This document shows, one piece after another, positions 15,839-36,530 of a DNA stretch of 64,000 nucleotides. This stretch comes from Bacteroidales bacterium. GTDB taxonomy: Bacteria; Bacteroidota; Bacteroidia; Bacteroidales; TTA-H9. The stretch is from assembly GCA_028689615.1 (NCBI GenBank), contig JAQVCV010000005.1, forward strand, positions 1-64,000, written 5' to 3'. The notes under the pieces are model-generated. The model searched no databases, was not told the DNA's origin, and worked only from the letters and a program-made list of their open reading frames with translations. Both the position numbers and the translations under genes were made by a program. Position 1 is the first letter of the stretch. The number at the start of each line of letters is the position of its first letter.

Positions 15839-16981
15839 ATGAGCTTCAACCAGGCAAACATCAGGTTAGAAAACATGGATCACCACGGCATTGAACGGGT
15901 GGCTTTGGTGTTTGCATACGATAAAGCATTGATTGCAGAGGTAAAGCAATTACCTGGTGCCAACTGGAGCCAAAGCCGCCGGGTTTGGCACATTCCTGCC
16001 GACCCGGATTCGGTAACCAAGGTGTTGCACCATTTCGAGGGGAAAGCAATGGTTGATTGTTCGGCACTTCAAAGAGCGGAAACCGCGAGTGACCAGACGA
16101 ACGTCCCTGTGGTTACAGGTCAGAAAGAGGGTGCTGTGGACGAAACAATAGTTTCCGATCTTTTGCAATTCAGGCAATGGCTGGAGCACAAGCGCTACAG
16201 CCCTTCAACCATCAATACTTATCTTCACGCTATCAGGGAATTTTTAGTTTTTACGGGAGGTAAACCCCCACACGAGATTACCAATGCCGATATGGTGAAG
16301 TTTGTAACCGACCATGTGATAGCCAACGGATTGAGCTATTCGTACCAGAACCAGACCATCAACGCTGCCAAGCTCTTCTTTAGTGTGGTGCACGGGGCGA
16401 GACTCGAACCCGACACGTTGCAACGCCCACGGCCGCAACACCGGCTGCCCAACGTATTGAGCAAGGAAGAGGTGAAGGCTGTGCTGGAGGCCCTGACGAA
16501 TCAGAAGCATCGAGCCATGCTCAGCCTCATTTACGGGTGTGGCTTAAGGCGAAGCGAGTTGCTGAACCTGAAGCCCGAAGATGTGGACTCCAGGCGCCAC
16601 CTCCTGCACATCATCAACGCCAAGGGGAAGAAAGACCGCGTGGTGCCGCTGTCGGATAAGCTGATAGCGATGTTGCGCGAATACTTCCAGGCGTGGAAGC
16701 CTCGGGTGTGGCTGTTTGAGGGGCAGAAGGCGGGAGAGCAGTATTCAGAAACGAGCCTTCAGCAGGTTCTTAAGTTCGCCAGAACAAAAGCTGATATACC
16801 GAAACCTGTTACCCTTCATTGGTTGCGTCATTCATACGCAACACATCTTTTAGAAGCAGGAACAGATTTGCGCTACATTCAGGAGCTTTTAGGCCATAAA
16901 AGTTCCCGAACTACCGAGATTTATACCCATGTGAGCCAACAAGCAATCGCAAAAATTAAATGCCCTTTCGATGATTTATAA
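15839..16981 (+). CDS. tyrosine recombinase / site-specific integrase (candidate cassette integrase)
   Basis: Catalytic motifs: GCGLRRSELLNL (Arg), GKGKKDRVVPL region (K), HWLRHSYATHLLEAG (HxxR), LGHKSSRTTEIYTHVS (H..Y); N-terminal extension plus SAM-like domain; start trimmed from ORF 15794..16981. Confidence 0.92.
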   Translation: MSFNQANIRLENMDHHGIERVALVFAYDKALIAEVKQLPGANWSQSRRVWHIPADPDSVTKVLHHFEGKAMVDCSALQRAETASDQTNVPVVTGQKEGAVDETIVSDLLQFRQWLEHKRYSPSTINTYLHAIREFLVFTGGKPPHEITNADMVKFVTDHVIANGLSYSYQNQTINAAKLFFSVVHGARLEPDTLQRPRPQHRLPNVLSKEEVKAVLEALTNQKHRAMLSLIYGCGLRRSELLNLKPEDVDSRRHLLHIINAKGKKDRVVPLSDKLIAMLREYFQAWKPRVWLFEGQKAGEQYSETSLQQVLKFARTKADIPKPVTLHWLRHSYATHLLEAGTDLRYIQELLGHKSSRTTEIYTHVSQQAIAKIKCPFDDL

Positions 16982-17011
16982 CAGCCAGACACCCGGTATA
17001 AAGAACACCCA

Positions 17012-17067
17012 AATGTGTACATATACGCAGGATTCTGTTGTATATGTACACATTTTATGTACATATA
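17012..17067. other. candidate attI-like site: perfect 14-bp inverted repeat plus a third half-site
   Basis: aatgtgtacatata (17012-17025) - 15 nt - tatatgtacacatt (17041-17054), then atgtacatata (17057-17067), directly before the first cassette boundary gttatgggc (17073). Confidence 0.5.
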
Positions 17068-17089
17068 AGTAAGTTATGGGCAAGCTAAA

Positions 17090-17851
17090 ATGACGACACT
17101 AAGATTCTACATATTGACCCTTTTGACTTCCTGCTCTTTGTCCTTATCGGCACAAAATGGACCAGCAATTATTAATGACTCAGACGGATTTACAAATGTT
17201 CGCAGCGGACAAGGAACAAATTATGAAGTAATTGACACGTTGTTTAATGAAGACTTCTTCTACTTCAAAGTTGACAATAACTCAGATTGGGCAAAAGTAA
17301 CGGCTTGGAAAGGAAGACAAATTGAAGGCTTTATTCATAAAAGCAGAATTCAAGAAGTAAAGAACCTTGACAATAATTCAATTAAGGAAATCATACTCAA
17401 AGTGCTAGATAGACAAAGAGTATTGGCTGACAACTTTAGAGATTCTTGGAAAGCAAAGGACAGTCTTGCTTACCGAACAACCGTAAGAGAATTAGAAAAC
17501 TACAGCGAAACCAAATACGACCCAATTCTTCAAGTTATACCGCAGTATTTCTGTTCTACCAACGACATTGAAATAATTGACAAGTTCTTTGCGACAATGT
17601 GGGCAGACCAAGGATCTGCCAATGAAATGCCTTCATTTTCGATTGGCGACTGCTTCATTTGTAATCCAGATTTGATAATGGAGCGACTTGAAAAAATAAC
17701 GGACAATGAGCAGAAAACATTCATCCTTAACCATATAGAATGGGGACTACTGAATCATTTTGACGTTGATGAAGATGGTAGTTCGGACGACAAAGAATTT
17801 AACGAACTAATTGAACGAGTTAATAAAGAAAGAAAAAAAGCCAGCCCATAA
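17090..17851 (+). CDS. SH3-domain (SH3b) containing secreted protein, cassette 1 gene
   Basis: Signal peptide; DGFTNVRSGQGTNYEVIDTLFNEDFFYFKVDNNSDWAKVTAWKGRQIEGFIHKSRIQ. Confidence 0.75.
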   Translation: MTTLRFYILTLLTSCSLSLSAQNGPAIINDSDGFTNVRSGQGTNYEVIDTLFNEDFFYFKVDNNSDWAKVTAWKGRQIEGFIHKSRIQEVKNLDNNSIKEIILKVLDRQRVLADNFRDSWKAKDSLAYRTTVRELENYSETKYDPILQVIPQYFCSTNDIEIIDKFFATMWADQGSANEMPSFSIGDCFICNPDLIMERLEKITDNEQKTFILNHIEWGLLNHFDVDEDGSSDDKEFNELIERVNKERKKASP

Positions 17852-17975
17852 CAAAGCACATAGCTTATGGCGGGTGAACGGTTGCCAGCAAGGTTTTCGC
17901 TTCGTAGCCAGCTTTGTTTCCGGTGGACAGGAAAGTGCTTCGAAACCGCCACAAGCCATATGCAAAACGTTAGTA
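17844..17975. other. attC-like site 1
   Basis: Inverse core GCCCATAAC (17844-17852, contains the upstream stop codon); arms gcacatagcttatggcgg (17856-17873) / ccgccacaagccatatgc (17946-17963), 15/18 complementary; core GTTAGTA at 17969. Confidence 0.7.
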
Positions 17976-17987
17976 AAAATACAAGAA

Positions 17988-20108
17988 ATGAAGAAAATAA
18001 ACTTTCTGATAATTTTAGCGATAGTGACAGTTAACACCAGCTTTTGTCAGAAAACAAAATGGATAAATTTTACTGTTACAAATAATCCATATTATACACT
18101 TGCAATTAGTGAATCAAATATATGGGCATGTTCTGATGGAGGTATTATACAAATTAATAGAGAAACAGAAAATCTTACAATACATAATCACGCTAATTCA
18201 AATTTTAACTTCAATCCATCCAGAGTTTTTATTGACTCGGAAGATAACGTATGGTTTTATAGTACCAATGATATTGGTATTTATAAAAATAGTAATTGGA
18301 ATGCCATTGAATTAATTGACACAGCTGGTGAGTTGGATCATATAAAGAAAATGGTTGTTACAAATGAAAACAAGATATATCTGCTTACATATTATAATAA
18401 CTCAGTATTGGAACTAATTAATGATACTACTCAACTAATTTACAAGTCTGACATCGGTTGGCCTAATCAAAGTTTTTCTGATATTGAGATTGATATAAAT
18501 GGTAATATCTGGATTGCTGGAATTGCTTCGGTTACTTGCATAAATGCAACAGATACTTTAGTTTTTAACTCAACTAATTCAGCAATCCCTGATGAATACA
18601 TTACTGATATATTTCTTGACAATTATGGAAATCTATGGGTAGTACCAGAAGGATTCGGAGATATTTCACTTTTAATGTATGATGGCAACGAGTGGATAAG
18701 TTGGGAGAAATCAGTTTTTGCAGATTTTGATATTCTTTGGAATACTATAAGTGAAGATAATAATGGTGTAATTTACTTAAGTTCTCTTAATGGTATATTC
18801 AAATATGAAAATGGAAATTGGATAAAGTCAGATGAAATATCAACTGATTGTCTGGTAATTGATTCAGATGATAATCTTTGGTGTATATCACAAGGAAATA
18901 TAAAGGAATACATCGGAGAAGAATGGAAATCTTATGATCAAACTAATAATGAGCTAGATGATTATGTGAACAATTGTTTAAGTAAAAACATAAACTCAAT
19001 TTATATTGGAGGAAAAAGTGGAGTTGCAATTTTTGACGGTACAATATGGGAGAAACATTCAGGAGTTGAAGAAGTTAGTTTGATAGCTGTAACAAATAAT
19101 GGTACGGCAATGGCCCTAATAGGTAATGAGATTAAAATCACTTTTGATTTTATTTCTTGGCAATCATTGGATCATGTAAATTTTCCAACTTCTAAATATG
19201 GTTATCATAAAATATTTAATAGTTCAGATAATACATTCTGGATAGGAACTAATAATGGTTTGTTTCATTTTGAAAATAATTTAATGAATAAAGAATTAGA
19301 AATGCGGATTAATGATATAGATCAAGATGAAAATGGGAATATTTGGCTAGCAACATCTGAAGGGTTAATTAAATATAACAATGGAATATTGCAACAATAT
19401 GATTTAGATAATACTAATCTGCCATCAAATTTTATTTCACATATAAGCGTAAACGATTCTGCTACGATATGGTTGTCTGTTCAAAAAAAGATTGATGGTA
19501 ATCCATTCTATTACGTAGAGAGCTATTTAACAAAATTTGAAAATGAAATAATAGAAAACTATGATACATTATGTTGTGGAGATTATTCATATGCAACAGA
19601 ATTAAACTATGGTTATCCAATTGATAAAATAATAAAAGGGAAAGAAAATGATATTTGGATCAATTATAAATATTCAGGATTAGTTCACTTAAATAATGAA
19701 TTACTAGATTTTTATCACTATAATAATTCAGGTTTAGCTGACAACAATATTAATGATTTGTTAATAGATGAAAACTCAAATGTCTACCTTTTGCATGATA
19801 GAGCCTTATCAATATTTAATAAAAATGATATTAACTATGGCTCAACAGAAGTGCAATTAAATAATAAAATATCAATATACCCCAATCCATCACATGGTAA
19901 ATTCTGTGTCAACTTCAGCATGGTGTTATCAAAACATATAAAAGTTAATATATTAGATGTTTGTGGTAAAGTTTTATACTCAAATAAATACAAGCCTAAT
20001 TCAAAGGAGATACATGTAGAATTAAACAATTTTAAACCAGGATTATACCTGATTAATATTGAAAATGATAATCAGTTTTATTCAGCTAAACTTTTAATCA
20101 TTGATTAA
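17988..20108 (+). CDS. propeller-repeat protein with T9SS type A sorting domain, cassette 2 gene
   Basis: Repeated D..GNIWIAT/WLATSEGL two-component-regulator-propeller-like motifs; C-terminal ISIYPNPSHGKFCVNF...LKPGLYLINI; start trimmed from ORF 17811..20108. Confidence 0.85.
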   Translation: MKKINFLIILAIVTVNTSFCQKTKWINFTVTNNPYYTLAISESNIWACSDGGIIQINRETENLTIHNHANSNFNFNPSRVFIDSEDNVWFYSTNDIGIYKNSNWNAIELIDTAGELDHIKKMVVTNENKIYLLTYYNNSVLELINDTTQLIYKSDIGWPNQSFSDIEIDINGNIWIAGIASVTCINATDTLVFNSTNSAIPDEYITDIFLDNYGNLWVVPEGFGDISLLMYDGNEWISWEKSVFADFDILWNTISEDNNGVIYLSSLNGIFKYENGNWIKSDEISTDCLVIDSDDNLWCISQGNIKEYIGEEWKSYDQTNNELDDYVNNCLSKNINSIYIGGKSGVAIFDGTIWEKHSGVEEVSLIAVTNNGTAMALIGNEIKITFDFISWQSLDHVNFPTSKYGYHKIFNSSDNTFWIGTNNGLFHFENNLMNKELEMRINDIDQDENGNIWLATSEGLIKYNNGILQQYDLDNTNLPSNFISHISVNDSATIWLSVQKKIDGNPFYYVESYLTKFENEIIENYDTLCCGDYSYATELNYGYPIDKIIKGKENDIWINYKYSGLVHLNNELLDFYHYNNSGLADNNINDLLIDENSNVYLLHDRALSIFNKNDINYGSTEVQLNNKISIYPNPSHGKFCVNFSMVLSKHIKVNILDVCGKVLYSNKYKPNSKEIHVELNNFKPGLYLINIENDNQFYSAKLLIID

Positions 20109-20113: not shown

Positions 20114-20259
20114 TTTTACTAACAAATAGCACTTAAACGCGCTGCCACTCCCGAACACTTTCGGGAAAACTCCAGCGACGTAGCCAGCAAACTCCCGATA
20201 ACTATTAGCTATCGGGAGGCAGCAGCGTCCCGAGCATTCGGGATAAGTGAGTGTTGTGA
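20114..20259. other. attC-like site 2 (family with internal CCCGA hairpins)
   Basis: Inverse core TTTTACTAAC (20114-20123); aacaaatagcacttaaacgcgctgcc pairs with ggcagcagcg..taagtgagtgtt; core GTTGTGAG at 20253. Confidence 0.6.
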
Positions 20260-20281
20260 GCCAGCGGCAAGCATTATTTCA

Positions 20282-20684
20282 GTTCAGTGAGCAACGTTTT
20301 TGTCGGTTTTGGGATGATTTCAGTAGAAGATGAACCTCTGACGATACTTTTTGGTCGGGCAAAGCATGGCAGTAGCAATCCCCCTTATCGATGGCAACTT
20401 TGTATCCCGAATCGGATGCAGCCTAATACCTTTCATAAGGAATAATGTCTTTAAGGATTTCGAGATATTCACTAAATTTGCAAGCAAGAAGGGTGCTCCT
20501 CGCTCAACATGCCATAGCAATAATACTTTGGCCGGTGGTGCGGAAGCTTCCGCTTTTGGATTTTGAGTTCATCGTGTTAAAATTTAAATAGTTAAATGAA
20601 AATTTATACGACAAACGGTTGTTTTTGTGCCACCATGGCCTCTGGTGGTGAGTCAAGGATGTATTCGACTGACTACCGGAGGTT
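20282..20684. repeat. Recurring ORF-poor cassette element, copy 1
   Basis: gagcaacgtttttgtcggttttgggatgatttcagtagaagatgaacctctgacg...gagttcatcgtgttaaaatttaaatagttaaatgaaaattta...; copies at 31601 and 35318. Confidence 0.85.
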
Positions 20685-20819
20685 TAGTTCAACATTTTGT
20701 ATAAGTAATGGCAGGCGATGTGGTAAATTTTAAAGTTAGTATCCAACTCAAACTGTGTAGCGGTTTGACACGGAAGATGCCCGCAATCTGCCACTACTCA
20801 TACACGTGACCGTTGGCAA
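20685..20819. other. attC-like site 3
   Basis: Inverse core TAGTTCAAC (20685-20693); arms gtataagtaatggcag (20699-20714) / ctgccactactcatac (20788-20803), 14/16; core GTTGGCAAC at 20812. Confidence 0.6.
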
Positions 20820-21112: not shown

Positions 21113-23353
21113 ATGAGTTTAAATACACAATCGCTAAAACCTTTAATTGATTTTATATATTCAGTTGCTGACCAGATTCTAATAAACACTTACGAACCAA
21201 GCAAATACAAAGACGTTATCCTTCCAATGACAGTTATTCGACGATTGGATGCTGTTTTGGAACCGACCAAAGACAAGGTATTAGAATCGCATGAAAAATA
21301 TAAAGGCAAATTAAACGACCTAACTGCAATTCTGACAAGCAAACTAAACGGCAGCGGACAGGCATTTTACAATACTTCGCCATACACACTAAAAAAATTG
21401 CTGGATGACCCGAAAAACCTGCGAAGCAATTTTGAAAACTTCATAAATGGATTTTCCAATAATGTTCAGGACATTATTTCAAAATTCAAGTTTAGGAATG
21501 AACTTGAAACCCTGGAAGAAGCAGGAAAACTATTTTCAACAATTGAAAAGTTTGTTTCGCCAAAAATTGATTTACGACCAGAAAGCTTGCCACCATTGGC
21601 AATGGGTTATGTTTTTGAAGATTTACTGCGTAGATTTAATGAAGCCACAAATGCGGAAGCCGGACGACACTTCACGCCTCGTGAAATTATCGACCTTATG
21701 ACGCATGTTTTGTTTTTGCCAGTAAAAGAAGAAATTCAAACGGGGACTTTTTTGATTTATGACCCTTGCGCAGGTTCGGGTGCGATGCTCACTGAATCAA
21801 AAAAATATATCACAGACGAAGAGGGAGAAATAAAATCAAAAGCCACTATTCATCTTTACGGGCAAGAAAACACGCCAACAATTTATGCTATTTCAAAATC
21901 GGACATGTTGCTGAAAGGTGAAGACCCTGAGAAAATTAGGTATGGCAGCACATTGAGCCAATATGGTTTTTCAAAGGATTTACGTTTCGATTTTATGCTT
22001 ACCAATCCACCTTACGGTACAAGCTGGGCAGACGATAAAAAAGCTTTGAGTATCGGCGACAAAGGGAAAATAATTGACCCTCGTTTTCAAATTAAAAAAG
22101 GTTATTTCAGCGAACCTGCGGTAACGCGAGTGAATGACGGTCAGTTGATGTTTGTTTTGCACATGTTGAGCAAAATGAAAGAAACGGAACAAGGCAGTCG
22201 CATTGCTTCAGTTCATAATGGTTCGGCTTTGTTTACAGGCGATGCAGGGCAAGGCGAAAGTGAAATACGCAAACACATTATTGAAAGCGATATGCTGGAA
22301 GCAATCATCGCTTTGCCCAATGACATTTTTTATAACACCGGCATTCCGACTTATATTTTTGTAATGACCAACCGGAAGCCGGAAAACAGAAAAGGCAAAA
22401 TACAACTCATCAATGCCAACGGGGAACAATTCTTTGTAAAAGAAAAGAAATCATTGGGCAGTAAACGCAACAAACTTGATTCATCCAATATAAACGATAT
22501 TACCAAACTGTATCTTGATTTTAAAGAAACCGAGTTCAGCAAGTTGTTTGACAACAACGAGTTTGGTTATGCCCAAATCGTTGTTCACCGACCTTTGCGT
22601 TTAATGGTTCAGTTTACCGCTAAAAAAGTGGCATCGCTTCGTTTTGTTTCAAACAATCCGGCTTTGCGGGAAGAAGTTTACAAAGAATTTGGAAACGAAG
22701 TTTACAACAAAAAATCTACCGCAAACCAAGAACAATGGTTACTCAATTACTTCATGCAGGAAAATGAAGATGAAGAAGGCGAAGACAGCGATACTGAAAT
22801 CTCGATTGCATCATTGCCAAAGAAAAAACAAAAAATTGTAAAACAACTTTTGGATACCACTGTTTGGCAACGCGACCTTGATTTGATGAACAATGCCAAA
22901 AAATTAGCAGAAAACTTTAGCGATAAACTCTTTAACGATTATAACCTCTTTGATGAACTGTTAACCGCAGCCTTAAAAAAGGAAAACCTGAAATTTGCAG
23001 CCAAAGACAAAAAAGACCTTTTGAGTGCAATAAGCTGGACTGACCCAAAAGCCGAAGCCGTAATTAAGAAAAAACACAAAGACGGAAGCATTGAATATGT
23101 AAGCGACCCGTCATTGAAAGATTCGGAAAACATTCCGTTGAAAGAAGATATACAGGAGTTTTTTGAACGGGAAGTAATTCCATTTGCCTACGATGCCTGG
23201 TGGAACAAAGACGAAACTCGCATTGGCTACGAAATCAACTTCAACAAGTATTTTTACAAATACACTCCTCCGCGAAGCAAAGAAGCCATTGCCGCCGACC
23301 TGTTTACCATTGAACAGGAAACCGAAAATCTGTTAAAAGAAATTGTGGGATGA
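21113..23353 (+). CDS. hsdM: type I restriction-modification system, M subunit
   Basis: AGRHFTPREIIDLMTHVL; IYDPCAGSGAML; MLTNPPYGTSW. Confidence 0.95.
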   Translation: MSLNTQSLKPLIDFIYSVADQILINTYEPSKYKDVILPMTVIRRLDAVLEPTKDKVLESHEKYKGKLNDLTAILTSKLNGSGQAFYNTSPYTLKKLLDDPKNLRSNFENFINGFSNNVQDIISKFKFRNELETLEEAGKLFSTIEKFVSPKIDLRPESLPPLAMGYVFEDLLRRFNEATNAEAGRHFTPREIIDLMTHVLFLPVKEEIQTGTFLIYDPCAGSGAMLTESKKYITDEEGEIKSKATIHLYGQENTPTIYAISKSDMLLKGEDPEKIRYGSTLSQYGFSKDLRFDFMLTNPPYGTSWADDKKALSIGDKGKIIDPRFQIKKGYFSEPAVTRVNDGQLMFVLHMLSKMKETEQGSRIASVHNGSALFTGDAGQGESEIRKHIIESDMLEAIIALPNDIFYNTGIPTYIFVMTNRKPENRKGKIQLINANGEQFFVKEKKSLGSKRNKLDSSNINDITKLYLDFKETEFSKLFDNNEFGYAQIVVHRPLRLMVQFTAKKVASLRFVSNNPALREEVYKEFGNEVYNKKSTANQEQWLLNYFMQENEDEEGEDSDTEISIASLPKKKQKIVKQLLDTTVWQRDLDLMNNAKKLAENFSDKLFNDYNLFDELLTAALKKENLKFAAKDKKDLLSAISWTDPKAEAVIKKKHKDGSIEYVSDPSLKDSENIPLKEDIQEFFEREVIPFAYDAWWNKDETRIGYEINFNKYFYKYTPPRSKEAIAADLFTIEQETENLLKEIVG

Positions 23354-24693
23354 TTGCAATGGAAGTAAAATATAAAAAAACAGGAATCGACTGGATGCCG
23401 ATAGTTCCGGAACATTGGGATATTGTTCGGTTAAAATGGGTATTAAAAAATGGAGAAGGTATTAAAATTGGACCGTTTGGTAGTTCTTTAAAGCTTCAAG
23501 ACCTTGACAATAATGGGATTCGTGTTTATGGTCAAGAAAATGTAATTAAGGATGATTTTAGTTTGGGTAAACGGTTTTTATCAAAAGAAAAATTTGAAGA
23601 ATTATCAGTTTACGAAGTTTTTCCTCAAGATATTTTAGTTACAATGATGGGAACAACTGGTAAATGCAAATTAGTTCCAGATGATGCAGAAAAGGGTATT
23701 ATGGATTCTCATTTAATTCGACTCAGGGCAAATGATAAAATAAGACCTGAATTCCTGTCAATACTAATTAACGACTCTAAGCAATTGAAATATCAGATGA
23801 GTATTGATAGTAAAGGGTCAATTATGAGTGGACTTAATTCCAAAATAGTTAAAAATCTTTTACTGCCGTTGCCATCAATTAACGACCAGGATTTGATTTT
23901 AAAAAAAATAAAAACAGAATCCGCCCAAATCAGCCGCTTTCTCCAGAGTAAGCAAAGCTTCATTGAACTGCTCAAAGAACAGCGGCAAAGTATTATTACC
24001 CATGCAGTAACCAAAGGAATTGATGAAAATGTGAAGATGAAAGAAACAGGGATTGATTGGATGCCTGAAGTGCCGGAGCATTGGGAAGTTAGAAAAATTC
24101 GCAGGATATTTAATGGTATTTCAAGTGGCACTACACCCGAAAGTGGCAATTTAAAATATTATGAAAATGGGTATGTAAATTGGATAAATACGGGTGATTT
24201 GAATGATAACACCTTAACTGGATGTAAATATAAAGTGACTAAAAAAGCTTTGGATGATTATCCCACCTTGAAGATTTACCCTTCAGGAGCAGTGCTGGTT
24301 GCAATGTATGGTGCTACAATTGGAAAAGTTTCTTTATTAGAAATAGAAGGTTGCACAAATCAAGCTTGTTGTGCTTTGTATGATAGTGATATTTATTCGA
24401 AAGAGTTTTCACTTTATTCCATACTTGCTTCAAAAGATGCACTAATAAGAGAAAGTTATGGGGGCGGTCAACCCAATATTAGCCAAGATGTTATCAAGAG
24501 ATTCAAACTTCCTGTTCCGCCTACTGAAGAGCAAAAGCAAATTGTAGAATTTATCAAATCCGAAACCCGCACTTTAGATATTGCCATCAACAAAGCCGAA
24601 CGGGAAATAGAATTGATGAAAGAATACCGGGAAGCAATGATAGCTGAGGCGGTTACGGGGAAAAAAATTGTAAATTCGCATATTTCAGGATAA
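23350..24693 (+). CDS. hsdS: type I restriction-modification system, S subunit
   Basis: Two TRD halves each starting TGIDWMPxVPEHW; overlaps hsdM stop. Confidence 0.92.
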   Translation: MIAMEVKYKKTGIDWMPIVPEHWDIVRLKWVLKNGEGIKIGPFGSSLKLQDLDNNGIRVYGQENVIKDDFSLGKRFLSKEKFEELSVYEVFPQDILVTMMGTTGKCKLVPDDAEKGIMDSHLIRLRANDKIRPEFLSILINDSKQLKYQMSIDSKGSIMSGLNSKIVKNLLLPLPSINDQDLILKKIKTESAQISRFLQSKQSFIELLKEQRQSIITHAVTKGIDENVKMKETGIDWMPEVPEHWEVRKIRRIFNGISSGTTPESGNLKYYENGYVNWINTGDLNDNTLTGCKYKVTKKALDDYPTLKIYPSGAVLVAMYGATIGKVSLLEIEGCTNQACCALYDSDIYSKEFSLYSILASKDALIRESYGGGQPNISQDVIKRFKLPVPPTEEQKQIVEFIKSETRTLDIAINKAEREIELMKEYREAMIAEAVTGKKIVNSHISG

Positions 24694-24697
24694 AATT

Positions 24698-25828
24698 ATG
24701 CAAGACGAAAATAATAACATAGTAAGTGAACTTCAGGTTGAATACGAAGATGTAAGTAGCGGAGTCTTAATGGAAAAGCCCTTCAATCCTTCGAAAATTG
24801 ATATTACAACAAAGCACCTTACCATCGACTTGTTGATTAAACGTTTGAAAGCCGACCCCATTGAAATAGATTTAGCACCGGCATTTCAGCGTAAAGGCGA
24901 TTTATGGGACGACCAGAAACAAAGCCAGTTAATTGAATCATTGTTAATCAAATTTCCATTACCAGCTTTTTACTTTGATGGTTCCGATAATAACAAATGG
25001 TTGGTGGTTGACGGATTACAACGGTTAAGTTCACTACGGAATTTTGTCATTCTAAAAAAACTCAAACTTCAGGGACTGGAATTTCTAAACAAACTGGAAG
25101 GCAATAGTTTTGATGATTTACCCCGTAATCTTCAGCGTCAGATTGAAGAAGCTCAAATAACGGCTTACATCATCAATCCCGGTACACCTGAAGAAGTTAA
25201 ATTCAACATTTTCAAACGCATCAACACCGGCGGATTAATTCTGAACTCGCAGGAAATCCGTCACGCACTGAACCAGGGTATTTCAGCGACCTTTGTCGCC
25301 GAGTTAGCCGAATTAAAAGCGTTTAAAGATGCTACGGAAAATGCTATCAACCCTAACCGGATGATGGACAGGGAATTTGTAACAAGGTTTATTGCATTCT
25401 ATTTGTATCCATATACCGACTACAATCCGGATTTGGATACTTACATGAACAAAGCAATGAGCGATATAAAAAGGTTGACTGTTCAGCAAAGGGAAAAAAT
25501 AAAGTCTGATTTTACCAAATCGATGAAGTTGGCAAAAAAGATTTTTAATAACTGGGCTTTCAGAAAATCTGATAAATATCCCGATAAAAGAAAACCAATA
25601 AATAAAGCACTCTTTGAAGTATGGAGTGTTTTGTTAGCGAAGTTAGACGATGCCAGCAGGGAAAAATTAGAAAATAACAAAACCATTTTGTTTGAGAAAG
25701 CGGTAAATCTTACCAAAGATGATTCGGTATTTTTTGACAGCATAACTACTTCAACCGGTAATAAATCATGTGTGCTTGACCGGTTTACAAAAATTGACAG
25801 AATAATAAAAGAAACATTGCAGCAATGA
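24698..25828 (+). CDS. DUF262 (GmrS-N/ParB-like) domain protein, restriction-linked ORF
   Basis: FQRKGDLWDDQKQSQLIESLLIKFPLPAFYFDG...WLVVDGLQRLSSL; FKRINTGGLILNSQEIRHA. Confidence 0.85.
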   Translation: MQDENNNIVSELQVEYEDVSSGVLMEKPFNPSKIDITTKHLTIDLLIKRLKADPIEIDLAPAFQRKGDLWDDQKQSQLIESLLIKFPLPAFYFDGSDNNKWLVVDGLQRLSSLRNFVILKKLKLQGLEFLNKLEGNSFDDLPRNLQRQIEEAQITAYIINPGTPEEVKFNIFKRINTGGLILNSQEIRHALNQGISATFVAELAELKAFKDATENAINPNRMMDREFVTRFIAFYLYPYTDYNPDLDTYMNKAMSDIKRLTVQQREKIKSDFTKSMKLAKKIFNNWAFRKSDKYPDKRKPINKALFEVWSVLLAKLDDASREKLENNKTILFEKAVNLTKDDSVFFDSITTSTGNKSCVLDRFTKIDRIIKETLQQ

Positions 25829-26922: not shown

Positions 26923-26927
26923 AGAGT

Positions 26928-27785
26928 ATGGAGCTTATTTGTAATGAATTATCATTTATTCCATTAGCGGAAAATGGACATATTGCAGAAGAAAGGTTTA
27001 AGACCATTATTCAATCCTTTCGCGAATCTAAATCAAGATACAATTTTACTCATATTCGCTTTCCTAAAAGTTATTCAGCCTTGCAAATCACAGCAACTCA
27101 AACACTTTTTGAATGGATTTCAACATTATCCAATCCAACGTTGAAAGCTGCGATTTTAACTTTATTCAGACCCCCTTATACAGATGACCTGGAAGAATCG
27201 GAGATGGATACTTTTTTTGAAAGTAATTACTCAATTACAAGCGAAGAAGCACCGGAAAGAAATTCACCGGTAGGTTTGCCGGTTGCCTTTATTAAATCCG
27301 TTCCCTGTATTAGTTTTGATTCGCATGATTTCTGGAAAAAAAGGAAAATAGAAATCAGCAAAACAAATGGAAACAGACTTGAAAATGCTGATTTTTTTAC
27401 TTACAATATTTGCTTGCCTACCGATTTGAATACACCAGAGTTGAATGAATGGGCTGAAAATTGTTTTCCTGAATACATTAATACGACTGAACTTCTCACA
27501 AAATATCTCAGCTATAGAAAATACGAAGTAATTTTCTCTGAAAGTTTTCTGCAACAGTTCTTTGAATGGAAAAAAACGGATATGGATTCATTCAAATATC
27601 TTCTTTTGCTTATGAAAGATGTGGAACTTCATCCATTTACAGGGGGAAGGGGGCAAACAGAAAATTTAAGGAACAGAGGAAAGGAAGCATCGAAAAGAAT
27701 TAATATCAATGATAGATTAAGTTATACTGTTATAAATAATGTTGTAACATTTATAGCCTGTAAAGGACATTACGAATTCCATTAA
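26928..27785 (+). CDS. unknown N-terminal domain fused to C-terminal YoeB/Txe-like toxin domain
   Basis: C-terminal FFEWKKTDMDSFKYLLLLMKDVELHPFTGGRGQTENLRNRGKEASKRININDRLSYTVINNVVTFIACKGHYEFH resembles YoeB DPFxGxGKPExL..SRRINxxHRLVYxV...ACRxHY. Confidence 0.65.
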   Translation: MELICNELSFIPLAENGHIAEERFKTIIQSFRESKSRYNFTHIRFPKSYSALQITATQTLFEWISTLSNPTLKAAILTLFRPPYTDDLEESEMDTFFESNYSITSEEAPERNSPVGLPVAFIKSVPCISFDSHDFWKKRKIEISKTNGNRLENADFFTYNICLPTDLNTPELNEWAENCFPEYINTTELLTKYLSYRKYEVIFSESFLQQFFEWKKTDMDSFKYLLLLMKDVELHPFTGGRGQTENLRNRGKEASKRININDRLSYTVINNVVTFIACKGHYEFH

Positions 27786-27787
27786 AA

Positions 27788-30700
27788 ATGACAACCGACA
27801 CCACAGAAAAAGGATTGGAAGCCCATATAACCCAATATTTGTGTTTGGTGAATGGATTTGAAGAACGCCACTTTAGCCAATACAACCGAACCGATTGTTT
27901 TGATGAAGAACTGCTTTTTAAGTTTCTGGAAGCAACCCAACCTAAGGAGGTGGCTAAACTTAAAAAATCGCATGGCAGCAATTACAGGCAGCGCGTAAAA
28001 TATTTGATAAATCGTAAAATAAAAGACGAAACTGTTGTAAATGAAAAGTGTCTTGGGGGTGTTATAAATTTATTGCGTACCGATGTAACAGACGGAAACA
28101 CGGGAATAAAACTTAAATTGTTTTACGACAAACCGGTTTCTAACTTGAACCGAAAAGATGCTGAACAGTATGAGAAGAATATCTTTTCGGTAATCCGTCA
28201 GGTGCATTATAGCACACAAAATGAGAAATCGCTTGACTTGGTTGTTTTTATCAATGGAATTCCGGTAATCACGTTCGAACTAAAAAACGAATTAACCAAA
28301 CAGAATGTAAAAGATGCCATCAAACAATACAAAACCACTCGCGACCAACGGGAAGAATTGTTTCGGCTGGCTCGTTGCCTGGTTCACTTTGCAGTGGACA
28401 CAGAACAAGTTTGGATGTGTACTCATTTGAGAGGCGACAACTCGTTTTTCTTACCCTTCAACAAAGGCAACAATAACGGAGCAGGAAATCCTCCTTCTAG
28501 TGGCATCAAAACCGAATACCTCTGGAAAGAAATTTTAACCAAAGAAAGCATAACGAACATCATTCAGAACTATGTTCAACTGATAGAAGAAGAATCGGAA
28601 AAAATATTGCCCGACGGAAAAATCAAAAAAGAGAAAATTAAAAAGATGATTTTCCCGCGCTATCATCAATTGGATGCGGTTCGTAACCTGCTGGCAAATG
28701 CGAAGGAAAACGGAGCAGGAAAACGCTATTTGATTCAACATTCGGCAGGTTCGGGAAAAAGTAATTCAATAAGTTGGTTAGCACATCAATTGGTTGGCTT
28801 ATTCGATAAAACAAATACTACAGCAGTTTTCGACTCAATCATTGTGGTAACTGACAGAATTGTTCTCGATTCGCAAATTCAAAGCAATATTAAGCAGTTT
28901 GAACAAGTAAAAGGTTTAGTAGAACATATTGATAAAGGCTCAAAGCATTTAAAAGAAGCTTTGGAAGAAGGCAAGAAAATTATCATCTCCACCATTCAGA
29001 AATTTCCGCACATCGTTGAAGAAATCGGGATGTTGCCGTCAAGTAAATTTGCCATTATAATTGACGAAGCACATAGCAGTTTTAGCGGACAAATGGCGAG
29101 AAAATTAAATGAATCACTTTCAAAACTAAATCTTGATTCAGCTACCAAGAAGGAAATTGACGATGAAATGGAGGAAGTTCTGAATAACTTGGAAAATGAA
29201 GAAACAGAAGACAATATTTCATCAGAAGATTTAATTAGAATCGTTGTAAAATCCAGAAAACTCCTGTCCAATGCAAGTTATTTTGCATTTACTGCTACAC
29301 CAAAACCAAAGACCCTTGAATTGTTCGGTATAAAATACCATGACGGAGAAAAAGAAAAATTCCGGGCATTCCATCTATATTCAATGAAACAAGCCATTGA
29401 AGAACATTTTATTGAGGATGTACTAAAATATTATACGACATATAAAGCCAGTTTTGGACTGCTGAAAAAGATTGAGGATGACCCACTCTTCGATAAAAAG
29501 AAAGCACAAAAAAAATTACGGGTGTATGTTGAAAACCATCAACTGAACATTGCAAGAAAAACGGCGGTAATGGTTGACCATTTTTTAGATGCAGTGATTC
29601 GGAAAAAGAAAATAAATGGTCTGGCAAAAGCGATGGTTGTTACAAGCAGCCGCAGAAATGCTGTGAAATACAAACATGCTTTCGATAAATATTTGAAAGA
29701 AAATGGCATCCCATACAGTGCGATTGTTGCATTTTCAGGTGAAATTGATGGAGAGACAGAGATGTCCTTAAATGGTTTCTCCAGTGCTTTGATACCGGAT
29801 GAATTCAAGAAGGTTAATAACAGATTCCTGATTGTTGCTAATAAATACCAAACCGGTTTTGACCAACCACTTTTACATACAATGTATGTTGACAAAAAAT
29901 TAGGGGGTGTAAGTGCCGTTCAAACACTTAGCCGTCTAAACAGAACCGCTTCCGGTAAAAGTGACACATTTGTTTTAGACTTTGCCAATTCAACCGATGA
30001 AATTAAAGATTCGTTTGAGCCTTATTATGAAACAACAATTTTAGGCGAAGCAACAGACCCAAATAAATTGTTCGACTTGCAAAATGCCCTTGATAATTTT
30101 AATATTTATACAAATGCCCAAGTTCAGGTGTTTTCGGATAAAATTGTTCAAAATTTTTCTGTTGACCAGTTACATAGTATTTTAGATGAAGCAGCCAATG
30201 TTTTCAAGATTACCCTTGATGAGAATTCGCAAGAAGATTTCAGGACAAAATGCAAGTCATACGTTCGTTTATATGTGTTTTTAGCTCAAATTGTGCCATT
30301 TACAAATCCTTATCTTGAAAGACTTTATATTTTTCTGAACCATCTGCAAAATAAAATTCAACGGGAACAGGGAGAAGACCTTGCACAAGGTATTTTAGAT
30401 GCAATCGACCTGGACAGTTATCGTTTACAAAAACAAGGAGAATTTAAAATATCCTTACAGCAAGGTGAAGAATTGTTGCCTTCGTCCGAAATGGGTGGCG
30501 GAGTTTCAGAAACTGAATTGGAATTACTTTCCAACATTGTAAAAGCATTTAACGACCGTTTTGGAACTCGATTTACCAACGAAGACAAAGTACGTAAAAT
30601 GGCTGCGGACTTAATGCAAGACGTTAAAGATGACAAAGCTGCGATGGACAACATTAATGCTTCCTTAAATAAAAACGATATCCAAAATGCTCAAATCACA

Positions 30701-30850
30701 TTCACGGATATTTTGAAAGAGAAAATGATAAATCATATTGACAGCAACTTTGAAGTGTTTAAGGAATACAATGATAATCCGGAGTTTAAAGCGTTTTTAG
30801 CAAGTCAAATGTTTAAATTATTAATCAATGATTTGGCAAAAGCCATATAA
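27788..30850 (+). CDS. hsdR: type I restriction-modification system, R subunit
   Basis: VFINGIPVITFELKNEL (nuclease), IQHSAGSGKSNSISWLAHQL (Walker A), IIDEAHSSFSG (DEAH), TLSRLNRTASGK. Confidence 0.95.
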   Translation: MTTDTTEKGLEAHITQYLCLVNGFEERHFSQYNRTDCFDEELLFKFLEATQPKEVAKLKKSHGSNYRQRVKYLINRKIKDETVVNEKCLGGVINLLRTDVTDGNTGIKLKLFYDKPVSNLNRKDAEQYEKNIFSVIRQVHYSTQNEKSLDLVVFINGIPVITFELKNELTKQNVKDAIKQYKTTRDQREELFRLARCLVHFAVDTEQVWMCTHLRGDNSFFLPFNKGNNNGAGNPPSSGIKTEYLWKEILTKESITNIIQNYVQLIEEESEKILPDGKIKKEKIKKMIFPRYHQLDAVRNLLANAKENGAGKRYLIQHSAGSGKSNSISWLAHQLVGLFDKTNTTAVFDSIIVVTDRIVLDSQIQSNIKQFEQVKGLVEHIDKGSKHLKEALEEGKKIIISTIQKFPHIVEEIGMLPSSKFAIIIDEAHSSFSGQMARKLNESLSKLNLDSATKKEIDDEMEEVLNNLENEETEDNISSEDLIRIVVKSRKLLSNASYFAFTATPKPKTLELFGIKYHDGEKEKFRAFHLYSMKQAIEEHFIEDVLKYYTTYKASFGLLKKIEDDPLFDKKKAQKKLRVYVENHQLNIARKTAVMVDHFLDAVIRKKKINGLAKAMVVTSSRRNAVKYKHAFDKYLKENGIPYSAIVAFSGEIDGETEMSLNGFSSALIPDEFKKVNNRFLIVANKYQTGFDQPLLHTMYVDKKLGGVSAVQTLSRLNRTASGKSDTFVLDFANSTDEIKDSFEPYYETTILGEATDPNKLFDLQNALDNFNIYTNAQVQVFSDKIVQNFSVDQLHSILDEAANVFKITLDENSQEDFRTKCKSYVRLYVFLAQIVPFTNPYLERLYIFLNHLQNKIQREQGEDLAQGILDAIDLDSYRLQKQGEFKISLQQGEELLPSSEMGGGVSETELELLSNIVKAFNDRFGTRFTNEDKVRKMAADLMQDVKDDKAAMDNINASLNKNDIQNAQITFTDILKEKMINHIDSNFEVFKEYNDNPEFKAFLASQMFKLLINDLAKAI

Positions 30851-31090: not shown

Positions 31091-31236
31091 GCCCATAACA
31101 AATAGCACTTAAACGCGCTGCCACTCCCGAACACTTTCGGGAAAACTCCAACAACGAAGCCGGCCCCCTCCCGATAACTATTAGCTATCGGGAGGCAGCA
31201 GCGTCCCGAGCATTCGGGATAAGTCGGTGTTGTGAG
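31091..31236. other. attC-like site (family of site 2)
   Basis: GCCCATAAC AAATAGCACTTAAACGCGCTGCC ... GGCAGCAGCG..TAAGTCGGT GTTGTGAG. Confidence 0.6.
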
Positions 31237-31286
31237 CCTGCCCCAAGCATTTGGGGGAACCTTCATGCAGATAAACCCTCTGTTCC

Positions 31287-31535: not shown

Positions 31536-31600
31536 ATGGAGTTTCAAAGTTTTTAGTTGTTTTCATCCGGTGGTTTTAGTGTCGTTTTGCTGTTGTTTTC

Positions 31601-31999: not shown

Positions 32000-32479
32000 A
32001 TGATTGCTATGATTAAAGAAGAGTATAAATATTCAGAGTTGACTTCAAAAATTATCAAATGTGCTATGACAGTGCATAGTGAATTAGGTAATGGTTTTAC
32101 TCATATAATTAATTCTTTTTTTAATGGTATTCGTGAATGCTTTGCATTTCAGGAGGTAATCTACCAAAGGGCTCTGGCTATTGAGATGCACCTTGCGGGT
32201 ATTGAGTTTAAAAGAGAATTTGAAATGCCGATTTTTTACAGGGATGAACGTATTGGAACACGGCGGGTTGATTTTTTGGTTGAAGGAATTGTGTCTGTCG
32301 AGTTAAAAGCAATGACAAAATTAGAAGATGTTCATTTTGCACAGGCAATAAACTATCTTGAAGCCTATAACCACGAAATAGGTTTACTAATTAACTTTGG
32401 CGAACGAAGCCTCAATTTTAAGAGGTTGACCAATAAAAAATATAAATCAATTAAATCACAAGAATCACACAAATCATAG
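32000..32479 (+). CDS. GxxExxY-like (PD-D/ExK-fold) protein with internal insertion
   Basis: HSELGNGF...FQEVIYQRALAIEMHLAGIEFKREFEMPIFYRDERIGTRRVDFLVEGIVSVELKAM. Confidence 0.75.
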   Translation: MIAMIKEEYKYSELTSKIIKCAMTVHSELGNGFTHIINSFFNGIRECFAFQEVIYQRALAIEMHLAGIEFKREFEMPIFYRDERIGTRRVDFLVEGIVSVELKAMTKLEDVHFAQAINYLEAYNHEIGLLINFGERSLNFKRLTNKKYKSIKSQESHKS

Positions 32480-32486
32480 TCAAACA

Positions 32487-33077
32487 ATGGGTTTAAGTTT
32501 TCATTATAGCGGCAGCATTGCAAAAGCGGAATTACTACCCGATTTGATTGACGAGGTGCAGGATATAGCCGGTATTTACAACTGGAAATTCAACGTATAT
32601 GAACGGCAATTTCCTGAAAACAGTTTTGGTATGCCGGATTACAACCAAAGTATTTATGGCGTAAGCTTTACACCGCCTGGCTGCGAGACTATTTCTCTTT
32701 GTTTTTTGTCGAACGGTCGCATGAGCAGCCCTGCCCATTTAAAATTTCATGGTAAAACCAACGAACAGCCTGAAAGGGAATATTTATACATGCTCTCGGT
32801 AAAAACGCAATTTGCTAATGTTGAAACGCATCAGTTTATTATTCAACTTTTTCGTTACCTTAATACAAAATATTTTGTCAATTTTACACTTACAGACGAT
32901 GGCTGTTACTGGGAAACAAATGATATTGAAGTACTAAGAGCAAATTTTAAAAGAAATGCCGATTTGTTATCAGGTTTCTCATCGGCACTTGAATGTGTAC
33001 CTATGGAAAAAGGAGAAACTATTGAAAAATACTTTACACGGTTATTAAACCTGATTGAGAAAAGAAAAAAACAATGA
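32487..33077 (+). CDS. hypothetical protein
   Basis: 196-aa ORF between, and co-directional with, flanking genes; overlaps the next ORF. Confidence 0.6.
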   Translation: MGLSFHYSGSIAKAELLPDLIDEVQDIAGIYNWKFNVYERQFPENSFGMPDYNQSIYGVSFTPPGCETISLCFLSNGRMSSPAHLKFHGKTNEQPEREYLYMLSVKTQFANVETHQFIIQLFRYLNTKYFVNFTLTDDGCYWETNDIEVLRANFKRNADLLSGFSSALECVPMEKGETIEKYFTRLLNLIEKRKKQ

Positions 33078-33081
33078 CAGT

Positions 33082-34398
33082 ATGCCTGAAAACCAAAATA
33101 TTGAACACAAAGAATCGTGGAGAGATGAATATCTGAAATGGATTTGCGGTTTTGCAAATGCCAATGGAGGAACGATTTATATTGGCAAGAATGATTCGGG
33201 TGAAGTTGTTGGTCTCAAAGATTCTAAGAAACTACTTGAAGATATTCCCAACAAAACGAAAGATATTCTTGGTATTTTGGTTGATGTTAATTTGCATCAA
33301 ACAGAAAAAGGGGATTTTATTGAAATTATAGTCGAAGCATATCCTTATCCGGTTAACTACAAAGGTCAATATCATTATCGAAGCGGAAGCACCAAACAGG
33401 AATTAAAAGGCGCAGCCCTTGACAAATTTTTGTTGCAACGAAAAGGCAAACGATGGGATGCCGTTCCGGTTCCAAACGTATCGGTTAATGATTTAAAGAA
33501 GGAAACCTTCGACTTTTTTAGGAAAAAAGCTGTAAAAGCTCAGCGCATTGAGGATGATGTTTTAACCGATACCAATGAGCAATTGGCTGAAAATCTTCAA
33601 CTAATTGAAAACGAATATCTGAAAAGAGCAGCAATACTGTTATTTCATCCAAACCCAGACAAGTTTGTTACAGGTGCATACATTAAAATCGGCTTTTTTG
33701 AAGCTGACGATGACTTAAGATTTCAGGACGAAATTCATGGTAACGTTTTTGAACAGGTAGAAAAAACAACAGATTTATTATTTACAAAATACATTAAATC
33801 GTCAATCAGTTACGAGGGCTTAAACAGGGTTGAGAAATACGAATATCCAAAAGATGCAGTTCGTGAAGCCCTGTTAAATGCAGTTTCTCACAAAGATTAT
33901 TCCGGTGGAGTTCCAATACAGATTAGCGTTTACAAAGACAAGATAATTTTATGGAACGAAGGTCAATTGCCCGAAAACTGGACAATTGAGAAACTATTGG
34001 ACAAGCATCCTTCAAAACCCTACAATCCGGACTTAGCCAATGCACTTTTCAGAAGTGGTTATATTGAATCCTGGGGAAGAGGAACGTTGAAAATGATAAA
34101 CGAATGCGTACAGTTTGGTATTCCAAAACCAAAGTATTTTTATGACATGTCGGGTTTCTGGGTTGAGTTCAGAAAAGATGTTTTTGACATCGAATATTTG
34201 AAATCGTTAGGTTTGAATGAAAGACAGATTCAGTCTGTAAAGTTTGTAAAAGAAAATGGCAAGATAACCAATAGTGAATATCAGGAAAATTATGGAGTTT
34301 CAAGGAACACAGCGACCAGAGACTTGTCGGAATTGGTTGATAAAGGCATTTTAAAATCATCGGAAGCCAAAGGGGCAGGTTCTTACTATGAATTATGA
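33082..34398 (+). CDS. AlbA_2 (Schlafen-like) putative DNA-binding / ATP-binding HTH protein
   Basis: ESWRDEYLKWICGFANANGGTIYIGKNDSGEVVGL; EALLNAVSHKDYSGGVPIQISVYKDKIILWNEG; C-terminal winged helix. Confidence 0.88.
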   Translation: MPENQNIEHKESWRDEYLKWICGFANANGGTIYIGKNDSGEVVGLKDSKKLLEDIPNKTKDILGILVDVNLHQTEKGDFIEIIVEAYPYPVNYKGQYHYRSGSTKQELKGAALDKFLLQRKGKRWDAVPVPNVSVNDLKKETFDFFRKKAVKAQRIEDDVLTDTNEQLAENLQLIENEYLKRAAILLFHPNPDKFVTGAYIKIGFFEADDDLRFQDEIHGNVFEQVEKTTDLLFTKYIKSSISYEGLNRVEKYEYPKDAVREALLNAVSHKDYSGGVPIQISVYKDKIILWNEGQLPENWTIEKLLDKHPSKPYNPDLANALFRSGYIESWGRGTLKMINECVQFGIPKPKYFYDMSGFWVEFRKDVFDIEYLKSLGLNERQIQSVKFVKENGKITNSEYQENYGVSRNTATRDLSELVDKGILKSSEAKGAGSYYEL

Positions 34399-34679: not shown

Positions 34680-34825
34680 GCCCCTAACAAATAGCACTTA
34701 AACGCGCTGCCACTCCCGAACACTTTCGGGAAAACTCCAACAACGAAGCCAGCCCCCTTCCGATAACTATTAGCTATCGGGAGGCAGCAGCGTCCCGAGC
34801 TTTCGGGATAAGTCGGTGTTGCGAA
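34680..34825. other. attC-like site (family of site 2)
   Basis: GCCCCTAAC AAATAGCACTTAAACGCGCTGCC ... GGCAGCAGCG..TAAGTCGGT GTTGCGAAC. Confidence 0.6.
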
Positions 34826-34873
34826 CCTGCCCCGTGCCTTTCGGGGGAACCTCCTGCAAATAAACCCTCTATT

Positions 34874-35251
34874 CCCGAATTCGGCTCGAAATTGTGCTAT
34901 TCTGAAGAAATTTCCATTACTGTTATTCCATAAAAGCCGATCGGGATTAACTGCCTCTAACCTCATTTGCTGCACAAATTCGCTAAGAGGCAGTAGAATC
35001 CCGAATTCGGCTCGAAATTGTGCTATTCTGAAGAAATTTCCATTACTGTTATTCCATAAAAGCCGATCGGGATTAACTGCCTCTAACCTCATTTGCTGCG
35101 CAAATTCATTAAGACGCAGTAAAATCCCGAATTCGGCTCGAAATTGTGCTACTCTGAAGAAATTTCCATTACTGTTGTCCCATAAAAGCCGATCGGGATT
35201 AACTGCCTCTAACCTCATTTGCTGCGCAAATTCATTAAGACGCAGTAAAAT
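34874..35251. repeat. Tandem repeat, 126-bp period (3 units)
   Basis: Units start at 34874, 35000 and 35126; same family as 31287-31535. Confidence 0.9.
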
Positions 35252-35317
35252 ATGGAGTTTCAAAGTTTTCGTTGTTTTCATCCGGTGGTTTTAGTGTCGT
35301 TTTGCTGTTGTTTTCAG

Positions 35318-35721
35318 TTCAATAAGCGACGTTTTTCAGCTAGTTTTGGGATGATTTCAGCAGAAGATGAACCTCTGACGATACTTTTTGGTCGGGCAAA
35401 GCATGGCAGTAGCAGTCCCGTTCATTGGGGGCGACTTTGTATCCCGAATCGGAAGCAGCCTTATACCTTTCATAAGGAATAATGTCTTTAAGGATTTCGA
35501 GATATTCACTAAATTTGCAAGCAAGAAGGGTGCTTGCCGTTCAACAAGCCATGGCGATAATACTTGGGCCGGTGGTGCGAAAGCTTCCGCTTTTGGATTT
35601 TGAGTTCATCGTGTTAAAATTTAAATAGTTAAATGAAAATTTATACGACAAACGGTTGTTTTTGTGCCACCATGGCCTCTGGTTGTGAATCAAGTATGTA
35701 TTCGACTGACTACCGGAGGTT
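35318..35721. repeat. Recurring ORF-poor cassette element, copy 3
   Basis: Same as copy 1 through the ...actaccggaggtttagttcaac boundary. Confidence 0.85.
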
Positions 35722-35858
35722 TAGTTCAACATCGTATTTATTGTATTTGGGCTGAATACGCATTTGGAGTTCTTAACGCTTTTTGGTAGCTTTACTATCG
35801 AGGGATAAGAAAGCAGTTTCAAACTCCCAAACTCAACAAATACGCAAAACGTTGAGCC
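35722..35858. other. attC-like site
   Basis: Inverse core TAGTTCAAC (35722-35730); arms tcgtatttattgtatttgggctg (35732-35754) / actcccaaactcaacaaatacgc (35823-35845) largely complementary; core GTTGAGCC at 35851. Confidence 0.65.
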
Positions 35859-35936
35859 AATTACAAAAAAGATTAAGTCAAACTTTAGATTACTTGTATT
35901 TCAACGATTTTAACAGTAAACAAAAAAATAAATATT

Positions 35937-36377
35937 ATGAATAGAATAAAGTTAATTGGTCTTATAATTATTTTAGTGATAGCTACTGCCTGTAATAATC
36001 ACTTTATGTCATTGACAATGTTGCAAGAGCAACTTGAAATTGAAAAACTTGATGAAATATCTAGAAAAAAAATCATTAATTATGGTATGTATGAATTTTT
36101 CAAAGTATCATATAAACCTAATGGATTATGGGAAGTGATTTGCATGGAAAAAAAGACTGGAAAAAAGGTTGCTTTAACAATCAATAAAGACACAGTACTT
36201 GTGATAACAGATAAAAGTGGCAAAAAACATCGATTGTATTTTGACACAGTACACATTTATGAAAATAAAATTTATGGACTATATTCAAGATTTATAAATG
36301 ATCCTAAAACAATAGATTTCGATTACATTGAAAAGATTGAAATCCATGCTGAAATGTCAAAAAGTCGAGATGTATAA
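35937..36377 (+). CDS. hypothetical lipoprotein (cassette gene)
   Basis: Signal IILVIATACNN lipobox; single ORF between two attC-like sites. Confidence 0.6.
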   Translation: MNRIKLIGLIIILVIATACNNHFMSLTMLQEQLEIEKLDEISRKKIINYGMYEFFKVSYKPNGLWEVICMEKKTGKKVALTINKDTVLVITDKSGKKHRLYFDTVHIYENKIYGLYSRFINDPKTIDFDYIEKIEIHAEMSKSRDV

Positions 36378-36385
36378 AAAGCCCA

Positions 36386-36530
36386 GCACACAACAAATAG
36401 TACTTAAACGCGCTGCCACTCCCGAACACTTTCGGGAAAACTCCAGCGACGTAGCCAGCCCACTCCCGATAGCTATAGTTATCTGTAGGCAGCAGCGTCC
36501 CGAGCATTCGGGATAAGTGAGTGTTGTGAG
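36386..36530. other. attC-like site (family of site 2)
   Basis: GCACACAAC AAATAGTACTTAAACGCGCTGCC ... TAAGTGAGT GTTGTGAG. Confidence 0.6.

Follow-up and report, generated by a model that had tools for sequence, protein, structure and literature searches.

A candidate integron-like cassette array with its own recombinase and site family in a Bacteroidales genome

A 64,000-nt stretch of contig JAQVCV010000005.1 (GCA_028689615.1) from a Bacteroidales bacterium, called the window below over its whole length, raises the question of whether a tyrosine recombinase and the palindromes between its neighbouring genes form a single cassette system. In the array region (15839-36530), the tyrosine recombinase gene (15839-16981, plus strand) is followed by co-directional genes with imperfect palindromes between them that start with AAC and end with GTT, just as the initial annotation had described. 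The locus is very probably an integron-like cassette array with its own recombinase and its own site family. A cassette platform run by a non-IntI integrase, with the recombinase upstream of the cassettes and in the same direction, had been proposed for it, and this proposal is now supported well beyond the window. The features that carry the argument are listed here; R1 denotes the covariance model of the hairpin family, and R3 a covariance model built from the sites of other organisms only.

15839..16981, plus strand: tyrosine recombinase, 380 aa, putative cassette integrase of a non-IntI family (PF00589, TIGR02249, tree, folds)
15839..16069, plus strand: N-terminal HARP-like module of the recombinase, ~75 residues (Pfam, AlphaFold model, Foldseek)
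17011..17075, plus strand: attI-like site, direct and inverted TGTACATATA-type boxes ending TATAAGTAAGTT; proposed crossover at GTT 17073-17075
17074..17971, plus strand: first cassette, with an open reading frame (ORF) for a secreted SH3_3 protein (17090-17851) and attC-like site a
17850..17971, minus strand (the folded strand): attC-like site a (R1 96.8 bits; R3 E 1.1e-15)
20121..20255, no strand: composite palindrome b, AAC...GTT, attC-like, unmatched by the models
20691..20814, minus strand: attC-like site c (R3 E 1.4e-16)
31097..31231, no strand: composite palindrome d
34686..34820, no strand: composite palindrome e
35728..35853, minus strand: attC-like site f (R3 E 7.3e-15)
36392..36525, no strand: composite palindrome g, apparent right end of the array

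Fold and covariation of the attC-like sites

A scan for AAC...GTT stems returned matching hairpins of 119-126 nt in the window and in other contigs of its genome, and none in shuffled sequence. In an alignment of 11 hairpins, the loop was conserved and compensatory changes occurred at 18 of the 24 predicted pairs. Matches to the covariance models were abundant, with R1 finding 1 to 43 sites per genome in all nine genomes of the window organism's family. An unfiltered scan of the window with R3 recovered sites a, c and f and gave no other match below E = 1.3, and Rfam at the gathering threshold reported only tRNAs in the window. The predicted fold was well supported across 98 sites, which were 91.4% paired (64.8% when shuffled) and had a covariation score of 0.614 versus 0.168, with 575 double-change cells versus 190 in the shuffled set. 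Similar values were obtained for a separate group of 119 sites drawn from named genomes (92.7% paired versus 64.0% shuffled, covariation score 0.662 versus 0.158, and 752 double-change cells versus 242).

The initial annotation counted seven attC-like sites in the window. Those at 17844, 20685 and 35722 stand as sites a, c and f. The other four, at 20114, 31091, 34680 and 36386 (palindromes b, d, e and g), are almost identical to one another and represent a single composite repeat of 134-135 nt (AACAAATAGCACTTAAACGCGCTGCC...GTT), which contains TCCCGA..TCGGGA hairpins in its arms and has further copies elsewhere in the same genome; they matched no model and were thus rejected as standard sites.

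The attC site of integrons comprises an R-box, an unpaired spacer, a stem and a variable loop (PMC2727003). Read on the strand antisense to the cassette genes, the sites described here are ~122 nt long and consist of a YAACG/TGTTR end pair, an asymmetric unpaired spacer, a stem of ~19 bp and a loop of ~70 nt, and thus share with integrons a foldable single-strand cassette site with an unpaired spacer. AAC and GTT were exact in 298 of 357 sites. However, the RYYYAAC and GTTRRRY cores cited in the initial annotation were not found in these 357 sites, whose agreement extends no further than YAACG and TGTTR. The consensus stem also had no fixed bulge, and hence none of the extrahelical bases that direct strand choice. 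Fixed G.T pairs were observed at set places (115 of 118 sites at one position), and the antisense strand formed the more stable fold in 240 of 317 sites. Both properties fit bottom-strand folding.

Association and polarity of the recombinase and the sites

A profile search of genome contigs with the window protein alone gave no match. Five array recombinases were aligned to form the query for a scan of named genomes, and 80 loci were kept, chosen by the recombinase alone with the sites disregarded; they include Flavobacterium, Algoriphagus, Pedobacter, Cecembia, Paenimyroides, Lutibacter and Saprospiraceae. All 119 sites detected in these loci lay on the strand opposite the recombinase gene, and 115 of the 119 lay downstream of it, even though the search covered 2.3 times more sequence upstream than downstream. 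Since the strand was read relative to an independently found recombinase, a strand bias arising from the orientation of each site is excluded as an artefact. At least one site was present in 22 of the 25 loci having at least 5 kb downstream of the recombinase, so that relatives of the window recombinase do have such palindromes as neighbours in nearly all loci whose downstream sequence is long enough. Contigs ended within 500 bp of the recombinase downstream in 26 of the 80 loci versus upstream in 2; arrays thus tend to break assemblies, which helps explain why the system has been overlooked.

An attI-like site downstream of the recombinase gene

Directly 3' of the recombinase stop codon, the motif TA(A/T)A-N1-4-AGTT was found in 70 of 83 loci, compared to 10.5 in shuffles. 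The box before this motif is repeated, with a direct copy 43 nt upstream and an inverted copy 11 nt upstream. Its sequence varies by lineage but agrees within a locus (6.6 and 6.4 of 12 positions, as opposed to 4.3 between loci). In the window, the first cassette starts at the attI-like GTT (17073-17075). The position of the attI-like site, 3' of the recombinase gene, is a correction to the initial annotation. The motif and the naturally occupied site suggest that, as in integrons, an attI is located beside the recombinase gene and the first cassette is joined to it at GTT.

Exchange of whole cassettes at GTT

Whole cassettes were shared between loci from GTT to GTT. A 1440-bp cassette was located between attC-like sites in genome G105 and, with 94% identity, as the first cassette at attI in Flavobacterium denitrificans; the identity begins at the left GTT and stops at the GTT of the cassette's own site. 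Furthermore, a 1.1-kb cassette with GTT ends is duplicated in F. saccharophilum (99.6% identity), and cassettes of genome G037 are common to Paenimyroides and to Pedobacter with GTT at both ends. The L213/L250 and L213/L252 pairs share cassettes in the same way. Cassette content also varied between close relatives: in the sister species G001 and G002, different cassettes lie between syntenic flanks, and the right-flank homology restarts at the GTT of the last site. As far as can be judged from these sequences, cassettes appear to be mobile between unrelated families as units bounded at G^TT.

A cassette common to families at 94% identity is found at 9492-10929 of L205 and 11120-12559 of L282. 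Its ORFs look to us like an ArsR-type regulator, a small GDCCVxC-type protein and a MerT/P-like protein, and it is a probable metal-resistance cassette.

The recombinase family and its N-terminal module

The window recombinase matched PF00589 (Phage_integrase; 7.8e-39) and also Phage_int_SAM_4. It scored 220.6 bits against TIGR02249 (integron integrase), under the cut-off of 265, and the alignment was split into two stretches (profile positions 2-179 and 238-315). The skipped positions 180-237 indicate that the 58-position IntI insert is absent from this protein, as the initial annotation had suspected; the same gap was seen in G000 C93 and C55. In a maximum-likelihood tree with the root set on Xer, where the inner order is unsure and some branches are long, the window recombinase was placed within a clade of 32 array recombinases (98/91). 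The 15 IntI sequences formed a separate clade (100/100) and XerC/D stood apart from both (100/100), in agreement with a non-IntI assignment. In between lay the recombinases of recombinase-associated acquired interbacterial defence (rAID) arrays, the long multi-module recombinases L002 and L133, and truncated recombinases found with tet(X3) or blaVEB-3. The closest solved folds were XerA (5hxy), the top structural match, and VchIntIA (2a3v).

The N-terminal module carries the motif WSxxxxxWHLP, and its AlphaFold model has a pLDDT (predicted local distance difference test) of 89. Foldseek matched it to the SMARCAL1 HARP domain (4o66) with a probability of 0.92 and to XPB (2fwr) with a probability of 0.96, with E values of only 0.05-0.1. 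HARP is a substrate-recognition domain, and it is therefore reasonable to infer that the HARP-like module grips the folded site. The array-associated recombinases L002 and L133 (588-630 aa) have several N-terminal HARP-like modules rather than one.

Distribution in Bacteroidia

R2, the model for the class-wide scan, matched 271 of 395 sampled Bacteroidia genomes (69%) and 148 of 197 genera at E<=1e-6. In surveys of Bacteroidetes, only In0 was known earlier, followed by one complete integron in Salinibacter (IntegronFinder 2.0, PMC9024848); the cassette system is nonetheless widespread in the class Bacteroidia, which is almost devoid of classical integrons. The largest array read, in G223, has ~35 sites on one strand over 60 kb, up to the contig end. 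In G105, well over a dozen sites lie within 22 kb, and the recombinase at the upstream end of this array is intact. In Chryseobacterium, the recombinase was found together with six sites on a complete plasmid. The window is a modest, partly repeat-invaded member of this system.

True IntI above the curated cut-off was found in 105 of 396 genomes of the phylum, and among the positives listed only G150 belongs to the class Bacteroidia. A class 1 integron gave no match to the model. As the negative control, genomes of the phylum that carry IntI were used; eight were without a match and five had matches. Among the loci fetched from the latter, two (L360 and L362) have a non-IntI recombinase of the window type beside the sites. 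L360 (G647) is from outside the class Bacteroidia, with a window-type recombinase and array and a genuine IntI elsewhere in the genome. In L359 (G406), four sites lie ~4 kb from a genuine IntI gene, which is not at the end expected for a canonical integron. This proximity was rejected as evidence that IntI uses the sites, since the gene lies beyond the wrong end of the R2 array.

Proposed mechanism and alternative explanations

We propose that one strand of the ~122-nt cassette site, antisense to the genes, would fold into a hairpin and be recognised by the recombinase, with recombination at this bottom-strand hairpin proceeding on a single strand. Strands would be exchanged at G^TT, with the recombinase joining the folded site either to a second hairpin or to the double-stranded attI-like site just 3' of the recombinase gene. 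Cassettes, i.e. a gene or operon with its 3' site, could thereby be captured beside the recombinase gene and later be lost or passed on, and they would be expressed from upstream.

The hairpins might alternatively be ordinary dispersed palindromic repeats between genes, resembling repetitive extragenic palindromes (REP), miniature inverted-repeat transposable elements (MITE) or terminators, with the recombinase an unrelated neighbour. AAC/GTT-bounded site units do recur in unrelated contexts, and palindromes b, d, e and g act as a dispersed genomic repeat. However, the strict polarity of strand and position in loci chosen by recombinase and the arrays of up to ~35 sites on one strand speak against dispersed repeats, and a strong contradiction comes from the cassette that is found at attI in one genome and between attC-like sites in another, with both ends exactly at GTT, which makes this explanation very improbable. 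The arrangement of parts is also that of a classical integron, and the TIGR02249 score and the presence of VchIntIA among the closest folds would suit one with divergent IntI and attC. There is little chance of this, given the missing insert, the separate IntI clade, the site ends other than RYYYAAC/GTTRRRY, the consensus stem lacking a fixed bulge, the failure of the model to find a site in a class 1 integron, and the single Bacteroidia genome among the IntI positives listed.

The arrays of rAID carry orphan immunity genes of the type VI secretion system (T6SS). Their defining features in gut Bacteroidales are a tyrosine recombinase, short genes in one orientation and conserved motifs between these genes (PMC12247911), and the window, too, has a tyrosine recombinase upstream of co-oriented genes. 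The rAID recombinases belong to the same super-clade, but as a distinct branch that is alignable only over approximately residues 111-380. Moreover, the hairpins of the rAID loci L352 and L353 are short-looped and gave no R2 match even at E<=10. No T6SS orphan immunity array was found in the window, whose cassettes instead encode a type I restriction-modification system with Nsn genes, secreted proteins including one of the type IX secretion system (T9SS), GxxExxY, AlbA_2 and other genes. A Bacteroidales rAID array is hence a highly unlikely identity for this locus.

Several observations nevertheless weigh against an integron-like cassette array. The covariance models did not pick up palindromes b, d, e and g, four of the seven in the window, and many recombinase copies near arrays in the window organism's own family are fragments. 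Eight shared segments stop at AAC ('A,L') and two start at AAC ('A,R'), versus 15 G-type boundaries, and these AAC-type breaks include the repeat-bearing cassettes of the window. The HARP assignment falls under curated thresholds (Pfam HARP, E 0.037). No gain or loss at the strain level was seen at the window's own array, which also yielded no clean empty site, its two flanks being syntenic with different contigs in G001/G002. The window array may be partly decayed or repeat-invaded.

Beyond the integron-like array itself, the evidence is evenly poised on a broader proposal, namely that the system is a second, IntI-independent integron class found throughout Bacteroidia, in which a HARP-like structure-recognition module replaces the IntI insert in the recognition of folded sites. 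Such a class may be an insert-less relative of the lineage from which IntI came, as well as a source of resistance genes (such as tet(X3) and blaVEB) exported beside a recombinase fragment. If confirmed, the cassette system would represent a large and so far uncounted pool of mobile genes, in environmental as well as host-associated bacteria, and a natural comparison for the evolution of single-strand site recognition with and without the IntI insert. It would also provide a testable explanation of where the 'xerD' fragments next to tet(X3) and blaVEB-3 came from.

Other features of the window

The remaining genes of the array are as follows.

17990..20108, plus strand: second cassette gene, Reg_prop propeller protein with a T9SS sorting tail
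21113..30850, plus strand: 10-kb multi-gene segment encoding HsdM, HsdS, NsnA/B/C-like proteins and HsdR (PADLOC)
32000..34398, plus strand: segment of three ORFs, GxxExxY protein, unknown ORF and AlbA_2/HATPase_c_4 protein
35937..36377, plus strand: last cassette gene, 146 aa, unknown

The segments had been described as mostly single-gene, which does not hold for two large ones, the 10-kb type I restriction-modification block and the three-ORF segment. In the former operon, the NsnA/B/C-like genes lie between HsdS and HsdR, and array palindromes flank it on either side.

A non-coding repeat with copies 92-95% identical was observed at 20277-20694, 31597-31930 and 35312-35731 of the window and at 9412-9893 of L033. 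At attC-like sites c and f it ends exactly at AAC and not, as is usual for boundaries, at the opposite GTT. In addition, a 126-bp tandem repeat is present in two and three copies in non-coding parts of the array (31283-31534 and 34873-35250, respectively). On the 5' side of the recombinase gene, GCGAAGCGGAAGTCCCGCGAATGCGGGA-type tandem repeats immediately precede it (15543-15712), and low-complexity ORFs with FFSAF/FFQRF repeats are found at 13660-14150.

Comparison with known systems

No earlier description of the Bacteroidia system was found in a literature search in which subscription journals were thinly covered, so an earlier description is possible. XerA, XerC and XerD resemble the window recombinase in their insert-less catalytic domain. 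XerC/D, however, form a separate clade without cassette arrays, and the copies examined are 298-348 aa long and lack the N-terminal module.

Besides integrons, the closest described relatives are the rAID arrays, in which genes of one orientation, separated by conserved motifs, likewise follow a related recombinase (PMC12247911; L352, L353). They differ in their short hairpins (gaps of ~40-80 nt) with another consensus, and in a content restricted to immunity genes. In L352 and L353 (Parabacteroides, Bacteroides), the short intergenic hairpins read TAATGG...CGTTA on the antisense strand, and they seem to be the sites of a sister recombinase, shorter and of a second type.

Truncated recombinases were also observed directly upstream of, and co-directional with, tet(X3) in Acinetobacter and environmental plasmids or blaVEB-3 in Klebsiella plasmids, at the following loci.

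L344, 5019-7040: truncated recombinase and resistance gene
L348, 5019-7040: truncated recombinase and resistance gene
L346, 8109-9730: truncated recombinase and resistance gene
L347, 6001-7730: truncated recombinase and resistance gene

In these contexts ('xerD-tet(X)-res-ISCR2'), the truncated 'xerD' is 49-50% identical to the C-terminal part of the window recombinase, and the spacer before blaVEB-3 resembles the attI-like site (TATTAGGGAGTTAGCG). Both tet(X3) and blaVEB-3 have the appearance of first cassettes that were exported along with a portion of the recombinase. Unlike the cassettes of the array, they are mobilised by insertion sequences, and a full-length attC-like site was looked for 3' of tet(X3) and blaVEB-3 and not found.

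The likeness to integrons is the most extensive. Both systems have a tyrosine recombinase, an attI-like dock beside its gene and cassettes that each end in a foldable site, with exchange at G^TT, a folding strand opposite the genes and the R-box, spacer, stem and loop anatomy of attC. In contrast to integrons, the Bacteroidia system lacks the IntI insert, has an extra HARP-like N-terminal module, and places its attI-like site downstream of a co-directional recombinase gene. Its sites end in YAACG/TGTTR instead of RYYYAAC/GTTRRRY, carry fixed G.T pairs with no fixed bulge, and have a near-constant length of 122 nt with a conserved loop. The system is integron-like by its anatomy and the evidence of exchange, and it is set apart from integrons proper by the insert, the clade, the site ends and the extrahelical bases.

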